Assembly (NCBI GenBank): GCA_934518555.1
Contig: CAKSXW010000011.1
Coordinates: forward strand, 1 to 47,344
Direction of reading: 5' to 3'
Length of the DNA: 47,344 nucleotides
From: an uncultured Faecalibacterium sp.
GTDB taxonomy: Bacteria > Bacillota > Clostridia > Oscillospirales > Ruminococcaceae
The translations under genes were made by a program, and so were the position numbers. Below, piece by piece: positions 19,090-24,766 of the stretch (positions are counted from its first letter, which is position 1; every line of letters begins with the position of its first letter). Below the pieces are notes generated by a model, which was not told where the DNA came from, did not search any database, and saw only the letters and a list, made by a program, of their open reading frames with translations.

Positions 19090-19105
19090 TCTTTCGGAAC
19101 TTTGA

Positions 19106-19135
19106 GCCGATGCCCTGGGCGGCATCGGCTTTTTT
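19106..19135 (+). terminator. Terminator of the DUF4358 gene
   Basis: A perfect 9-bp stem (19106-19114 with 19121-19129) followed by six T. Confidence 0.85.
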
Positions 19136-19136
19136 C

Positions 19137-19190
19137 AGTAGGCGTCCTCATCCGTCATGCCGCTTTCCCCCCCGGCCGGGGGAAGGCCGA
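19137..19190. repeat. Diverged copy of the palindromic repeat family
   Basis: CCTCATCCGTCATGCCGC followed by a C-run/G-run hairpin (TTCCCCC with GGGGGAA) and GGC. It has the CCGTCA and CCCCC...GGGGGAA features of the other elements. It lies in the leader of the acyltransferase operon. Confidence 0.5.
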
Positions 19191-19227
19191 GCATCCCTTC
19201 ACCCTGTGTAAAAAGGAGGCTGACCCC

Positions 19228-20646
19228 TTGGTTTTCAGCACCATCATTTTTTTGTTCCGCTTTTTGCCCATCACCCTGGCCCTGTATTACCTTGCCCCTC
19301 CCAAGCTGAAAAACACGGTGCTGTTCCTTTGCAGCCTGGTGTTCTACTGCTGGGGCGAGGTGCGGTTCTTCCCGGTGATGGTGGCCCTGATCCTGCTGAA
19401 CTACATCAGCGGCCTGGCCATCCAGCATTTTGACCAGAAGCCCGGCCTCCGCAAGGCCTTTTTGCTGCTGGCCCTGGTGGGCAGCCTGGGGATGCTGTTC
19501 TACTTTAAGTACGCCAACTTTGTGCTGGGCAGCCTCAATGCCCTGCTTGGCACCACCTTTGCCCAGATCCAGGGCATTGGCACCCTGCCCCTGGGCATCA
19601 GCTTTTACACCTTCCAGACCCTCTCCTACTCCATCGACGTGTACCGCCGGGATGTGAAGGCCGAACGCAACATCATCGACTTTGGTGCCTATGTGGTCAT
19701 GTTCCCCCAACTTATCGCCGGGCCCATCGTCAAGTACCGGGAGGTGTCGGACCAGCTCCATGTGTACCGGCACCGCTACAGCCTGGAGCAGATCCAGGAC
19801 GGCATGACCCTGTTCACCTTCGGCCTGGCCAAAAAGGTGCTGCTGGCCGACGCCATCGGTGCTTTGTGGACCGATATCATCGGGGTGTCCGGCAGCCCCT
19901 CCACCACCTTTGTGGGGCTGGCCAACGCCTCCACCCCTCTGGTGTGGCTGGGCATCCTTGCCTACAGCCTGCAGCTGTACTTTGACTTTTCCGGCTATTC
20001 CATGATGGGCATCGGCATGGGCAAGATGCTGGGCTTTGATTTCCCCCAGAACTTCAACTACCCCTATATCTCCCGTTCCATCACCGAGTTCTGGCGGCGG
20101 TGGCACATGACCCTGTCGGGCTGGTTCCGGGAGTATGTGTATATCCCCCTGGGGGGCAACCGCAAGGGCCTGAAGCGTCAGATCCTGAACCTGTTCATCG
20201 TGGAGCTGCTCACCGGCATCTGGCACGGTGCCAACTGGAACTTTATCTGCTGGGGCCTGTACTACTTTGTGCTGCTGGCCGTGGAAAAGCTGTTTTTGCT
20301 GCCCTACCTGCAAAAGGGCAAGGTGTGGCCCCACCTGTACACCCTGTTCTTGGTAGTGGTAGGCTGGGCCATGTTTGTGGGCAACGATACCGGAGTGTCC
20401 TTTGGGCTGCTGTTCCAAAAGCTGTTCCTGCCCTCCGGCGGCGTGTCTCCCCTGTACTTCCTGCGGAACTACGGGGTGCTGCTGGCAGTCAGTGTGATCT
20501 GCTGCACCCCTCTCATCGAAAAACTCTGGGATCGGCTGCGCCGGAACACCCTTACCCGCTGCGCCACCATCCTGGTGCTGCTGGTGGTCTCCACCGCCTA
20601 TGTGGTGGGCAGCACCAACAGTCCCTTCCTGTATTTTAACTTTTAA
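19228..20646 (+). CDS. MBOAT-family O-acyltransferase (AlgI/DltB type)
   Basis: A 472-residue multi-pass membrane protein that transfers acyl (commonly acetyl) groups across the membrane onto an extracellular glycan or polymer. Hallmarks: PLGISFYTFQTLSYSIDVYR, the FPQLIAGPIV segment, SITEFWRRWHMTLSGWFREYVYIPLGGNRKG and the catalytic His in GIWHGANWNF. Start taken as TTG 19228, eight bases after AAGGAGG, as MVFSTIIFLFRFLP is the usual family N-terminus. The next gene follows 12 bases on and encodes the DHHW partner. Confidence 0.93.
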   Translation: MVFSTIIFLFRFLPITLALYYLAPPKLKNTVLFLCSLVFYCWGEVRFFPVMVALILLNYISGLAIQHFDQKPGLRKAFLLLALVGSLGMLFYFKYANFVLGSLNALLGTTFAQIQGIGTLPLGISFYTFQTLSYSIDVYRRDVKAERNIIDFGAYVVMFPQLIAGPIVKYREVSDQLHVYRHRYSLEQIQDGMTLFTFGLAKKVLLADAIGALWTDIIGVSGSPSTTFVGLANASTPLVWLGILAYSLQLYFDFSGYSMMGIGMGKMLGFDFPQNFNYPYISRSITEFWRRWHMTLSGWFREYVYIPLGGNRKGLKRQILNLFIVELLTGIWHGANWNFICWGLYYFVLLAVEKLFLLPYLQKGKVWPHLYTLFLVVVGWAMFVGNDTGVSFGLLFQKLFLPSGGVSPLYFLRNYGVLLAVSVICCTPLIEKLWDRLRRNTLTRCATILVLLVVSTAYVVGSTNSPFLYFNF

Positions 20647-20658
20647 GGAGGCCAAAAG

Positions 20659-21831
20659 ATGTCTCATCATGAAAAAAAGGCCCCTTCTCTCCTGCGGTAC
20701 CCGGTGCTGCTGGTGTTCAGCCTGTTTTTTGCCGGGCTGTTTGCCCTGGATCTGCTTACCCCGGACCGGGCCTACAGTGAGCTGGAGAATACCACCCTCA
20801 GCCAGCGTCCGGCCCTGACCCAGTTTACCGCCAAGGGGCTCAACAATTACTTTACCGCCTACACCAAGTACGTCAAGGACCAGGTGGCAGGCCGGGACCA
20901 GTGGATCAGCCTGCAAAGCGTGGTGGAGACCACCCTGCTGCAAAAGCAGCAGAACGGCGGCATCCTGCTGGGCAAGGACCACATGATGTTCCCCCGGACC
21001 TACGGCCTGCTGGCCACGGAGGACCGCACCCTGCCCAAGAACACCCAGGCCCTGACCCAGCTGTGCCAGCGTTACCCCGGCAAGGTGGAGGTGCTGCTGG
21101 CTCCCTCGGCTGCGGAGGTGTACCCGGAAAAGGTGCCTGCCAATGCCCCTCTGCTGGACCAAAACCCCTACCTGGACCAGCTGGCTGCAGCGGTACAGGC
21201 TGCCGGAGGCCGGTTCGTGGACGTGCGCCAGACCCTGGAGGCCCACAAGAGCGAGTATATCTACTACCGCACCGACCACCACTGGACAAGCCTGGGGGCC
21301 TACTACGCCTACCAGCAGCTGTGCGATACCCTGGGCCTGACCCCCTTTGACACTGCCGCCCACACCGCCCTGACGGCCCAGGGCTTTTACGGCACCCATT
21401 ACTCCAAGGCCCGGACCTGGAACGCTGTGCCGGATGTGATCACCTACTACGACCTGCCCAACGCCCTGACTGTCTGGAACGTTACCGCCCCGGGCCAGCC
21501 CACCCAGGGCCAGACCACCGGCCTTTACGACACCCAAAAGCTGGCGGCCTACGACAAATATTCCATGTTCCTCCACGGCAACAACGGCCTGAGCCGGGTG
21601 GAGGGAGAGGGCACTGGCCGCATCCTGGTGATCAAGGACAGCTACGCCAACTGCTTTGTGCCCTACCTGACTGCCAACTACGGTCAGATCGACGTAGTGG
21701 ACTTCCGCAACTACAACTACGGCCTGGACCAGCTGATCACCGACAACGGCTACGACCAGATCCTGGTGCTGTACAGCTTTGACAGCTTTAAGAGCGACCC
21801 CTACCTTTACCGTGCCGGCGTGGCCGGTTAA
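20659..21831 (+). CDS. DHHW-motif (AlgJ/AlgX-like SGNH) acyl-transfer partner
   Basis: A 390-residue protein anchored by one N-terminal segment (about 14-33) with an extracellular SGNH-like domain. It carries the motif YRTDHHWTSLGAYYAY, which names the DHHW family, and VIKDSYANCFVPYL, the Ser-containing block. Such proteins accept the acyl group from the MBOAT partner and pass it to the polymer. Start ATG follows AAGGAGG. Co-transcribed with the MBOAT gene; the target polymer is unknown. Confidence 0.9.
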   Translation: MSHHEKKAPSLLRYPVLLVFSLFFAGLFALDLLTPDRAYSELENTTLSQRPALTQFTAKGLNNYFTAYTKYVKDQVAGRDQWISLQSVVETTLLQKQQNGGILLGKDHMMFPRTYGLLATEDRTLPKNTQALTQLCQRYPGKVEVLLAPSAAEVYPEKVPANAPLLDQNPYLDQLAAAVQAAGGRFVDVRQTLEAHKSEYIYYRTDHHWTSLGAYYAYQQLCDTLGLTPFDTAAHTALTAQGFYGTHYSKARTWNAVPDVITYYDLPNALTVWNVTAPGQPTQGQTTGLYDTQKLAAYDKYSMFLHGNNGLSRVEGEGTGRILVIKDSYANCFVPYLTANYGQIDVVDFRNYNYGLDQLITDNGYDQILVLYSFDSFKSDPYLYRAGVAG

Positions 21832-21847
21832 ACCAGGTCCTACCCCC

Positions 21848-21890
21848 TGCCCGGGCAGTGCTGCCAGCCAGCTGCTGCCCGGGCATTTTT
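21848..21890 (+). terminator. Terminator of the MBOAT-DHHW operon
   Basis: An 11-bp stem (21848-21858 with 21875-21885) followed by TTTTT. Confidence 0.8.
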
Positions 21891-21986
21891 GGCGCAAGGG
21901 CAGAATTATTGCAGTGGTTTTTCACAAACTTCTCTAGTTTTTTTCATAAGGCTTACCAGTTTTCTTCCAGTTTGCCCAAGACCCCC

Positions 21987-22015
21987 TTGCAAAAAAACAA
22001 CGGCTGTTGTACAAT
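21987..22015 (+). promoter_or_regulatory. Promoter of the double-glycine peptide pair
   Basis: TTGCAA (21987-21992), 17 bases and TACAAT (22010-22015). The transcript leader before the first gene is about 90 bases. Confidence 0.75.
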
Positions 22016-22066
22016 GGCCTTAGAGAGAAGCTGAAGCTCTCAAACCACATAAAAGGCAGTTTTGAT

Positions 22067-22096
22067 GCTCCTGCCGCAGAGGGCAGGTGCCTTTTT
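22067..22096 (+). promoter_or_regulatory. Attenuator-like hairpin before the first peptide gene
   Basis: A 9-bp stem (22067-22075 with 22082-22090, one mismatch) followed by CTTTTT, directly before AGGAGGGG and the ATG. It looks like a terminator placed inside the leader, so part of the transcripts may stop here. Confidence 0.5.
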
Positions 22097-22112
22097 ACAG
22101 GAGGGGAACCCA

Positions 22113-22469
22113 ATGGAAAAAAAGCTGAATCTGCCTGCGGACTACGCAGTGCTTTCCCATGACGAGATGACCTACACCCAGGGCGGCGGCGTGATCACCA
22201 CCCTGCTGGGGCTGTACACCGCAGGGGCTGCAACAGTGGGCACCGGCGTGCTGGCTGCCAGCTACGCCTGGGGCATCCAGCAGACCCGTGACTGGCTCAA
22301 GCAGCCGGGCAACAAGGAGGGCAACGTCTTTACCGTTTACGGCCGTGCCCTGGACGCCCTGTCTGCGGATATGCAGAAGTCCTCGTCCAACTTTATCCGG
22401 GACGGCGTCTCGGCCCTGACCGTTTGTGCCATGGGCCCCCTGAGCCTGTACCTGGTGCTGCGGAAGTAA
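22113..22469 (+). CDS. Double-glycine leader secreted peptide candidate, paralogue 1
   Basis: A 118-residue protein. Residues 11-25 read Y-A-V-L-S-H-D-E-M-T-Y-T-Q-G-G, which resembles the double-glycine leaders of class II bacteriocins and related secreted peptides. Cleavage after Gly25 would free a 93-residue core. The core has an Ala/Gly/Val hydrophobic stretch (about 28-52), a polar middle with charged residues (53-85) and a second hydrophobic end (about 97-116). One Cys. The ATG at 22113 follows AGGAGGGG. The second gene 74 bases on has the same leader. No exporter with a C39 peptidase domain was found in the window. Function is not established. Confidence 0.75.
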   Translation: MEKKLNLPADYAVLSHDEMTYTQGGGVITTLLGLYTAGAATVGTGVLAASYAWGIQQTRDWLKQPGNKEGNVFTVYGRALDALSADMQKSSSNFIRDGVSALTVCAMGPLSLYLVLRK

Positions 22470-22491
22470 GCAGCGACCCCTATTTTGGCTA

Positions 22492-22512
22492 CACAGCGTT
22501 TTATGCGCTGTG
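22492..22512 (+). promoter_or_regulatory. Hairpin between the two peptide genes
   Basis: A perfect 7-bp stem CACAGCG (22492-22498) with CGCTGTG (22506-22512), loop TTTTATG, no strong T-run. It may set the ratio or stability of the two messages. Confidence 0.45.
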
Positions 22513-22542
22513 AAATATGCTTTGTGTTAAAGGAGTGTTCTT

Positions 22543-22878
22543 ATGGAAAAGACTATGATGTATCCCGTCTCTTACAACGTTCTGTCCATGGACGAGATGA
22601 CCTACACCTCCGGTGGCGCTACCGCTACCCAGGCTATCCTGGCCGCTCTGCTGCCTCCCTACGGCTGGTACAAGGCAAGCACCGAGATCCGGGATTATCG
22701 CAAGAAGAACCCCGATACCTGGCTGAACTCCGGTCTGGACGCCTTTGTGGCAGGCTGTGAGAAGAGCGTGACTGACGCCATCTACGGTGTTGGCTGCGCC
22801 TACAACTTTGTGGCTATGAACATTGCCACCAGCGGCGTTGCACTGCTGCCGGCTGCCTACATCATCTTCATGCAGTAA
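22543..22878 (+). CDS. Double-glycine leader secreted peptide candidate, paralogue 2
   Basis: A 111-residue protein. The leader reads Y-N-V-L-S-M-D-E-M-T-Y-T-S-G-G at 11-25, in register with its upstream neighbour, and both use the same 18 bases for D-E-M-T-Y-T. The predicted 86-residue core begins ATATQAILAALLPPYG, has a charged centre with EIRDYRKKNPD and ends in two hydrophobic runs. Two Cys (in AGCEK and VGCAY) could form a disulfide. AAAGGAG precedes the ATG. The overall plan matches paralogue 1, but the core sequences have diverged strongly. Confidence 0.75.
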   Translation: MEKTMMYPVSYNVLSMDEMTYTSGGATATQAILAALLPPYGWYKASTEIRDYRKKNPDTWLNSGLDAFVAGCEKSVTDAIYGVGCAYNFVAMNIATSGVALLPAAYIIFMQ

Positions 22879-22904
22879 GCCAGGAGACACCACAGATCCT
22901 ATAA

Positions 22905-22969: not shown

Positions 22970-24766
22970 TCAGGTCTCCGGGGCCTCGCTGGCCGGCAGC
23001 TGGTTCCACAGGCGGTAGTAGACCCCCTGCTTTGCCAGCAGCTGGGCGTGGGTGCCCTCCTCCTGGATGCCGTCCTCCCCCAGCACCAGGATCCGGTCGT
23101 AGTCCTTGATGGTGGTCAGCCGATGGGCAATGGTCAGGGTGGTGCGGCCGTGGGCCAACTGCTCCAGGCTGCGGCCCACCAGGATCTCGCTTTCGTTGTC
23201 CAGGGCACTGGTGGCCTCGTCCAGGATCAGAATGGGCGGATTTTTCAAAAACACCCGGGCAATGGCGATGCGCTGCTTCTGACCGCCGGAGAGCTTGACC
23301 CCTCGCTCGCCTACATAGGTGTCGTAGCCGTCCTTCAGGGCCCGGATAAAGCCGTCGGCCCCTGCCAGCCGGGCAGCCTCCTGGATCTCCTGCCGAGTGG
23401 CACCGGGCTTGCCGTAGGCGATGTTCTGGGCCACGGTGCCGCTGAACAGGTACACGTCCTGCTGCACGATGCCGATATCCTGCCGCAGGCTCTGGAGGGT
23501 CACCTGGCGGATATCCTGGCCGTCAATGAGGATGCGGCCGCTGGTGACCTCGTAGAACCGGGGGATCAGGTTGCACAGGGTGGTCTTGCCGCCGCCGGAA
23601 GCTCCCACCAGGGCCAGCCGCTCCCCGGCCCGGATATCCAGGCTCACGTTGTGCAGCACCTTGTTGTGGTCGTCGGGGTACTCAAAGTTCACGTTCTCGA
23701 ACCGGATGGCACCGGGGCCCGGCTGCAGGGGCACGGCATCCGGGGCATCCTGGATGGCCACCGGGGTGTCCATGATCTCCACGAACCGCTCAATGCCGGT
23801 CATGCCACGCTGGAACTGCTCTGCAAACTCCACGATGCGGCGGATGGTGGCAATGAGGGTGGTAACGTACAGCATATAGGCCACCAGGTCACCGGCGGTG
23901 ATCTTGCCGTACACCAGGGACAGGCCGCCGGCCAGGATCACCACCAGGTACATCAGGCCGTCAAAGAGCCGGGTAGAGGTGTTGAAGGCACCCATGGCGT
24001 AGTAGCCCAGGGTCTTGATGTGCTCAAAATCCCGGTTGCCCTTGGCAAACTTTTCCCGCTCCTGAGCCTCGGCGGCAAAGGCCTTGACCACTCCCTGGCC
24101 CAGCAGGCTGTCCTCGATGGTGGAGTTCAGCTCACCGATCTGGACCCGCTGCTGCCGGAACCGGGCCCGCAGACGGCCGTTGAGGTACACCGACACCACC
24201 CCCATCAGGGGCACACAGGCAAACACGGCCAGGGTCAGGGGCACGCTGGCCCGGCACAGGATCACAAAGGAGGCCAGGATCTTGATGCCGGCAATAAAAA
24301 ACTCCTCCGGGCAGTGGTGGGCAAACTCGGTCACATCAAACAGGTCGTTGGTGATGCGGCCCATGATGGTGCCCACCTTGGTGTTGTTGTAGTAGGTGTG
24401 GTCCAGCCGCAGCAGGTGGTCAAAGGCGTCCCGGCGCATATCCGTCTCAATGTGCACGCCCATGATGTGGCCGATGCTGGCCATATAGTAGCTGGCTGCG
24501 CCGTCAATGATCCGCAGCACAAAATACAGTGCCGCCAGCCGCAGCACCACCCCAGCCGTCAGGGTGATGCCCACCCCCATGGCAGAGTTGGTAATGGTGC
24601 CCATAATCTTGGGCAGCACGATATCGCACAGGGTGGTAAGGCCTGCACAGAACAGGTCCAGACACAGGGTCTTTTTGTATTTGCCCATGTAAGGCATGAA
24701 CCGCCGCAGCAGCTGACGGCTGCTGGTGTGGTGCGCTCCAGGGTCCTTCATCTTATTTTTTGCCAT
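22970..24766 (-). CDS. ABC exporter half-transporter (permease-ATPase fusion)
   Basis: A 598-residue MsbA/MdlB-type protein: six membrane segments (about 30-300), then an ATPase with Walker A GASGGGKTT, Q-loop QQDVYLFSG, signature LSGGQKQR and Walker B ILILDEATSALD with an H-loop His in IAHRL. There is no N-terminal C39 peptidase domain, so it is not a peptide-processing exporter of the bacteriocin type. Start ATG follows GGAGG. Last gene of a four-gene minus-strand operon; substrate unknown (lipid, drug or peptide). It should work as a homodimer. Confidence 0.93.
   Translation of the reverse strand: MAKNKMKDPGAHHTSSRQLLRRFMPYMGKYKKTLCLDLFCAGLTTLCDIVLPKIMGTITNSAMGVGITLTAGVVLRLAALYFVLRIIDGAASYYMASIGHIMGVHIETDMRRDAFDHLLRLDHTYYNNTKVGTIMGRITNDLFDVTEFAHHCPEEFFIAGIKILASFVILCRASVPLTLAVFACVPLMGVVSVYLNGRLRARFRQQRVQIGELNSTIEDSLLGQGVVKAFAAEAQEREKFAKGNRDFEHIKTLGYYAMGAFNTSTRLFDGLMYLVVILAGGLSLVYGKITAGDLVAYMLYVTTLIATIRRIVEFAEQFQRGMTGIERFVEIMDTPVAIQDAPDAVPLQPGPGAIRFENVNFEYPDDHNKVLHNVSLDIRAGERLALVGASGGGKTTLCNLIPRFYEVTSGRILIDGQDIRQVTLQSLRQDIGIVQQDVYLFSGTVAQNIAYGKPGATRQEIQEAARLAGADGFIRALKDGYDTYVGERGVKLSGGQKQRIAIARVFLKNPPILILDEATSALDNESEILVGRSLEQLAHGRTTLTIAHRLTTIKDYDRILVLGEDGIQEEGTHAQLLAKQGVYYRLWNQLPASEAPET

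Follow-up and report, generated by a model that had tools for sequence, protein, structure and literature searches.

What do two small adjacent genes with a common N-terminus ending in Gly-Gly encode, and how would their products leave the cell? The genes lie in a 47,344-nucleotide stretch of DNA from an uncultured Faecalibacterium sp., analysed here as a whole and referred to as the window, with the following features, all on the forward strand.

20659-21831, +, DHHW/AlgX-like gene, a marker of the array site and not cargo (Pfam DHHW, E 9.8e-28)
21903-21931, +, conserved upstream block, putative regulatory element, with AATTATTGCAGT (21904-21915) and TTTTTCACAAA (21918-21928)
21987-22015, +, sigma-70-like promoter TTGCAA-17-TACAAT, from a consensus scan
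22099-22106, +, Shine-Dalgarno sequence of gene 1, AGGAGGGG
22113-22469, +, gene 1, family F1, 118 aa
22113-22187, +, leader of gene 1, 25 codons with Gly24-Gly25 at the end
22188-22466, +, predicted mature core of gene 1, 93 residues, assuming a cut after Gly25
22529-22536, +, Shine-Dalgarno sequence of gene 2, AAAGGAGT
22543-22878, +, gene 2, family F2, 111 aa
22543-22617, +, leader of gene 2, 25 codons with Gly24-Gly25 at the end
22618-22875, +, predicted mature core of gene 2, 86 residues
22905-22941, +, terminator-like hairpin closing the pair, 17 pairs and a T run

The leader sequences, NLPADYAVLSHDEMTYTQGG (gene 1) and MYPVSYNVLSMDEMTYTSGG (gene 2), align without gaps over the first 25 residues and are identical at 16 of these 25 positions (M1, E2, K3, P8, Y11, V13-L14-S15, D17-T22 and G24-G25), so that the shared leader ending in Gly-Gly that the initial annotation proposed for these neighbours is real. 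The leader consensus is MExxMxxPAxYNVLSxEEMTYTxGG. The use of the same 18 bases for DEMTYT in both genes, also pointed out there, is correct but carries little weight, with a chance probability of 0.16 given the codon usage of five neighbouring genes. Leader codon agreement is 0.60 within arrays (43 pairs) versus 0.57 between genomes (1733 pairs), and as these values are nearly the same, gene conversion as a general homogeniser of leaders was rejected.

A homologue search returned 124 matches for gene 1 (120 of them listed) and 82 for gene 2, and no names or Pfam domains were found among the listed homologues of either gene, bar one odd Pfam label. Homologues that keep the N-terminus and lack Gly-Gly had been named in advance as grounds for giving up the leader; since Gly-Gly is invariant in the 64 gene-2 homologues and nearly so in the 63 aligned gene-1 homologues (G24 invariant, G25 ≥ 90%), the relatives of the two genes do not show this pattern. 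Family libraries returned little for the pair: Pfam had no match for either gene (best E 0.14, Mersacidin, gene 1), NCBIfam no credible match for gene 1 (best E 0.011, an antiporter subunit) and none for gene 2, PADLOC none for gene 1 and one weak match for gene 2 (E 0.049), PHROGs no match for either, and the PDB sequences nothing usable (best E 0.076). Bacteriocin models searched in the 64 gene-2 relatives gave matches to glycocin F (4) and Gpos_C8 (3), all of them weak (best E 0.017). Eight IMG/VR stretches fit a pattern and none encodes a relative of gene 2, the gene used in this search; Rfam had no match at the locus. The AlphaFold2 model of gene 2 has a mean pLDDT of 82, with 76 residues at or above 90, an all-helical core and a disordered leader, and it returned no PDB fold match at E ≤ 0.001. 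The gene 1 model, of low confidence (pLDDT 48), consists of three helices. Alignments for these models comprised 55 of the 120 listed gene-1 matches and 54 of the 82 gene-2 matches, short, near-identical or mosaic sequences being left out; two mosaics (P0112, P0116) that start as gene 2 and end as gene 1 were set aside, as they may be assembly chimaeras.

We searched 31 Faecalibacterium genomes with the DNA of positions 20659-22900 and examined the site in the 30 that matched. An array is present in 26 of the 31, always at the same site, where the DHHW gene is followed by leader genes on the same strand: two genes in 19 arrays, three in six and four in one (the second gene of the G014 array is cut by a contig end). 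The array genes belong to families F1, F2 and F3, and F1 occurs in 23 of the 26 arrays. Four genomes (G022, G023, G024, G029) have a DHHW gene, with 57-65% protein identity to that of the window, and no leader gene was found; G027 has neither a DHHW match nor a visible array, but carries leader matches elsewhere. At the DNA level the DHHW gene was matched in 30 of the 31 genomes, weakly in G024, with an identity of at most 84-85% in the compared genomes where it aligned over its whole length, so the window probably stems from a Faecalibacterium species absent from this set. The array cores are 82-109 residues long. Profile comparison indicates that the F1, F2 and F3 cores are homologous (E 4.8e-8, 1.1e-13 and 1.7e-8, versus 0.09-0.22 for reversed controls), so the first description of the two cores, as alike only in plan, understated their relationship. 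A divergent array core, Fx (L008 9524), was treated apart and in hhalign matches F2 alone.

The cores had also been described as fast-evolving. This holds for paralogues but not for orthologues: dN/dS is 0.10-0.38 in 24 of 27 orthologous core comparisons between related genomes (the 27 pairs are not independent); in two of the other three dS is saturated, and in the third the proteins are identical. Orthologous array cores are under purifying selection. Conservation of the leader is usually equal to or above that of the core, with exceptions; for gene 2 of G007 and G011 the identities are 96% (leader) versus 46% (core), and for gene 3 of G003 and G013 they are 100% versus 65%. When G030 is compared with G008, one core is 100% identical in protein while the leader differs. 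The 120 bases upstream of this G030 gene match those of another G008 array gene at 99% identity, and relative to the third G008 gene the identity is 97% over codons 16-25 and 100% over the core. A crossover inside the leader, with loss of one gene or, taken the other way round, gain of one, would be the simplest reading. Because a core thus stands behind a neighbour's leader in this genome pair, leaders can apparently act as crossover points, and the array would offer a natural case of cargo exchange at the leader joint.

No dedicated exporter had been seen nearby, and this holds: a tblastn query made of residues 1-604 of one Faecalibacterium PCAT (C39-peptidase ABC exporter) found no C39 region in the window, and the MsbA-like ABC gene downstream of the pair (22970-24766, opposite strand) has no C39 match. 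A simple explanation is that the exporter is encoded elsewhere, PCAT being known here from the genomes of relatives. Both a leader and PCAT are described for MAM, an anti-inflammatory envelope protein of Faecalibacterium (PMC8836110, PMC12184118), and MAM has been assigned to PCAT in silico. The PCAT leader pattern given in PMC12184118 consists of Ile/Leu/Val-12, Glu-8, Leu or Met-7, Val-4, Gly-2 and Gly-1. Both leaders of the window agree with it at L-12, E-8, M-7, G-2 and G-1, and have Thr22 at -4, where Val or Ile is expected. The motif, at first considered not a textbook one, is therefore close to a published pattern, from which only the Thr at -4 departs. The PCAT1/CtA exporters cited in PMC12184118 resemble the Faecalibacterium type in combining C39 and ABC domains and in leader positions -12, -8, -7, -2 and -1; they differ in that here several cargo families, unrelated to each other and encoded at scattered loci, apparently share a single exporter.

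Leader profile A3, built from 18 leaders (two from the window and 16 from Faecalibacterium loci L001-L009, with no MAM included), scored above chance, at E ≤ 0.001, in 27 of the 31 genus genomes, nine of which also supplied A3, versus 11 of 396 family-level genomes. The initial annotation had proposed a C39-type exporter in leader-carrying genomes as a check; among the 27 leader-positive genus genomes, 26 have a C39 match (E about 1e-25), one of the 26 in a broken frame. The exception, G028, has an array and no C39 match. Full-length PCAT was found in none of the four leader-negative genus genomes; three had no C39 match, and the fourth (G024) has a weak one in a 293-aa frame (E 7.5e-8) that was not counted as PCAT. 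With G024 as a negative, the co-occurrence of leader and PCAT in the genus gives a Fisher p of 1.6e-4, and with G024 counted (26/27 versus 1/4) a p of about 0.0035, calculated by hand. At family level a C39 match over the cut-off was present in all 11 leader-positive genomes versus 83 of the 385 others (Fisher 8e-8); both tests are weakened by kinship, as related genomes are not independent points. G030 keeps its array, but its open frame with the C39 domain (L108) spans 203 aa and breaks after the peptidase part, which may reflect a broken exporter gene or a sequencing error.

Five of the 11 leader-positive genomes lie outside the genus, and in all five the leader genes are located about 1.5-7 kb from a C39 gene. 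The PCAT neighbours there are a protein of about 155 aa, an HlyD-family adaptor and a Big_2 (Ig-like) secreted protein, confirmed by Pfam for HlyD in L182 and L184 and for Big_2 in L181, L182 and L184, and assigned by sequence resemblance only in L183 and L185. Relatives of PCAT, the ~155-aa protein, HlyD and Big_2 occur together in all nine Faecalibacterium PCAT loci, and MAM-type genes lie within the ~20-kb PCAT stretches in three of the nine. PMC8836110 likewise reports HlyD and Ig neighbours of PCAT and places PCAT far from mam in most strains shown, whereas PMC12184118 has PCAT adjacent to mam in most species. In L185 (609-7428, from G087, outside the genus), LytTR, GHKL and AgrB genes adjoin a PCAT gene and a short leader gene of the Gly-Gly type whose core is rich in glycine and alanine; this cluster looks regulated and bacteriocin-like.

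Each leader-positive genus genome contains three to seven A3 matches at E ≤ 0.001 (mean 5.4, 146 in total). Cargo families were read in detail in nine genomes (G001-G009), which carry many small proteins with a like leader and unrelated cores, as the initial annotation had anticipated. The array is found in all nine, as is family B1 (~150 aa); MAM-type genes were recognised in eight (not in G007), family C (~77 aa) in six and family D (~95 aa) in two. Family B2 (~120 aa), with nine sequences over all genomes seen, adjoins B1 genes. Members of B1, B2, C and D occur in Faecalibacterium loci L052-L060 and L080-L103. MAM genes were retrieved by the MAM-free profile, with E values of 8.8e-10 (G001), 1.1e-9 (G003) and, for the weakest, 4.6e-4 (G009). 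By BLAST clustering and hhalign, MAM, B1, B2, C, D and the array have mutually unrelated cores; the best real pair, MAM-B1, reaches E 0.0016 over 22 columns with a probability of 16%, compared with 0.0064 for the best reversed control. With 15 MAM cores, hhalign gave E values of 0.20, 0.29 and 0.26 for F1, F2 and F3, no better than reversed controls.

The array leader is recognisably of one family with that of MAM, sharing the Pro, the Tyr/Phe, Glu-Met-Thr-Tyr and Gly-Gly. The two systems have further in common the genus, PCAT in the genomes, small helical hydrophobic cargo and, in some strains, two mam genes side by side. They differ in that the array sits at another locus, after the DHHW gene, its cores are not detectably related to MAM, and its leaders lack MMMPAN and Val-4. 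For this last reason both leaders fail the search motif MMMPANx(8,11)VxGG, which appears in PMC12184118 and would miss both genes. MAM is described there as three helices, a likeness to gene 1 that does not count because the plan is too common. The array cores are also more hydrophobic (maximal 19-residue Kyte-Doolittle mean 2.29 for F1, 1.97 for F2 and 1.83 for F3, versus 1.36 for MAM) and may therefore be membrane-bound; for the same reason MAM is a weak analogy for an envelope role. In a surface extract MAM was covered to 85%, with only the first 21 residues missing, and on one occasion a peptide was detected that extends across the uncut leader (PMC12184118). In one genome (G002) a MAM-type copy (L030 11676-12020) keeps the start of the leader without Gly-Gly and the surrounding residues, and adjoins an intact second copy.

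We propose, with a probability of roughly 0.7 for the reading as a whole, that a PCAT recognises the leader through its C39 domain, the PCAT gene lying at another chromosomal position next to those for the ~155-aa protein, the HlyD-family adaptor and the Big_2 protein. PCAT would cut after Gly25 and export the two helical cores (93 and 86 residues). These small proteins, produced two or three together, would most likely be retained in the envelope, associated with the membrane or at the surface. Export of the array proteins is well supported by sequence comparison, and is more certain than their location in the envelope. The comparisons show leader identity, conservation of the array, co-occurrence with PCAT and, outside the genus, proximity to it, as well as unrelated cargoes under one leader, purifying selection and leader crossover; recognition by that PCAT, the cut at Gly25, the envelope location and the function of the cores are predictions. 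Against this reading stand G028 without C39, the broken frame in G030, the Thr at -4, the MAM-type copy without Gly-Gly (L030 11676), the uncut MAM leader peptide (PMC12184118) and the in silico nature of the MAM-PCAT link.

We consider it unlikely that the array encodes a bacteriocin of two or three components, whose exported cores would jointly hit the membranes of competitors, even though several observations fit: a Gly-Gly leader and C39 export, two or more genes in every array, hydrophobic stretches in F1, F2 and F3 exceeding those of MAM, cores shuffled by leader crossover, and the leader gene of G087 (L185) beside PCAT with a LytTR regulator, a GHKL kinase and AgrB, as in regulated bacteriocin clusters. 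Class II two-peptide bacteriocins likewise combine a Gly-Gly leader and a C39 exporter with tandem genes for diverged paralogous cores. The present cores, however, at 82-109 residues over all arrays, are long for class II, as was correctly noted at the outset for the 93 and 86 residues of the window. An exporter in the same cluster, expected of class II, was not found, the window having no C39 region, and no recognisable immunity gene lies between the DHHW and MsbA-like genes of the window, where a small immunity protein can be missed. Immunity proteins have no signature that can be relied on. The distribution of bacteriocin genes tends to be patchy, whereas this array occupies a syntenic position in nearly all members of the genus, and its orthologous cores are under purifying selection. 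Of the earlier suggestion of secreted, processed peptides of the class II kind, the part that stands is that the proteins bear leaders and, by comparison, are probably processed and exported; a class II role is less likely, given the lack of a recognisable immunity gene beside the pair, purifying selection and an array in 26 of 31 genomes. A surface role seems likelier than bacteriocin activity.

It is improbable that the N-terminus is only a shared domain of helical proteins that stay uncut in the inner membrane or the cytosol. Cleavage after Gly25 is a prediction, the hydrophobic segments could insert unaided, and one MAM-type copy without Gly-Gly exists, but Gly-Gly invariance in all 64 gene-2 homologues, a leader predicted to be disordered beside a well-folded gene 2 core, the same leader on unrelated cores beside PCATs and the co-occurrence with PCAT all argue for removal. 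Least probable, and very much so, is that the exported cores are pheromones or are cut further into signal peptides. Some PCATs do export pheromones (PMC8836110) and regulators adjoin the leader gene in G087; against this, the cores have 82-109 residues, gene 2 is predicted to form a folded domain, and the annotated stretch next to the pair contains no receptor or regulator gene.

Under the preferred reading, export in trans by PCAT, the data suggest that one exporter handles several unrelated cargoes, MAM being just one among them. In a wider form, which we put forward tentatively and at slightly below even odds, a single PCAT-HlyD-Big_2 exporter would act in trans as a genus-wide plug-in platform for at least five unrelated cargo families, MAM included, linked by the leader only; leaders in the cassette array after the DHHW gene would serve as recombination joints at which cores are swapped, dropped and duplicated, yielding species-specific small surface proteins that face host and competitors. 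Should MAM have its export tag in common with other cargo families, effects now credited to MAM or to a PCAT mutant might also come from those families. The array might then account for differences between strains, and one might use the leader to list everything exported by this route. The pair had been put forward as the best candidate for an undescribed secreted peptide system. For the leader and PCAT, which are published for MAM (PMC8836110, PMC12184118), this does not apply; neither the array nor its connection with MAM was found in print. In the open literature searched, with subscription journals, preprints and supplements little covered, the leader motif turned up only in MAM papers and no description of the array paralogues was found. 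Apparently new is a PCAT cargo that combines a leader of the MAM type with an unrelated core, within an array that shuffles.

Immediately 5' of the array and on the same strand, the DHHW/AlgX-like gene forms a pair with an MBOAT acyltransferase gene (19102-21831), likely a pair for O-acetylation of a cell-surface polymer. The scan of the region found one promoter, compared with a mean of 0.4 (sd 0.7) in shuffled sequences, and its TTG...TA..AT positions are conserved over an alignment of 27 upstream regions. Two hairpins were found, versus a mean of 1.5 in shuffles; this number is not above chance, and the 17-bp stem is the strong one. The upstream block is recovered as separate blastn blocks 5' of arrays in several genomes (in G019, 29 bp at 97%), and it is also kept in the alignment of 26 genomes with the window. 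A loose TTCACAAA box (21918-21928 in the window) lies 5' of 25 of the 26 distinct first genes of arrays and is missing in L001. The same box was observed 5' of B1 genes in L052, L054, L055, L058 and L091 and of MAM-type genes in L095 and L096, its recurrence hinting at a possible common regulation of several leader-gene families.
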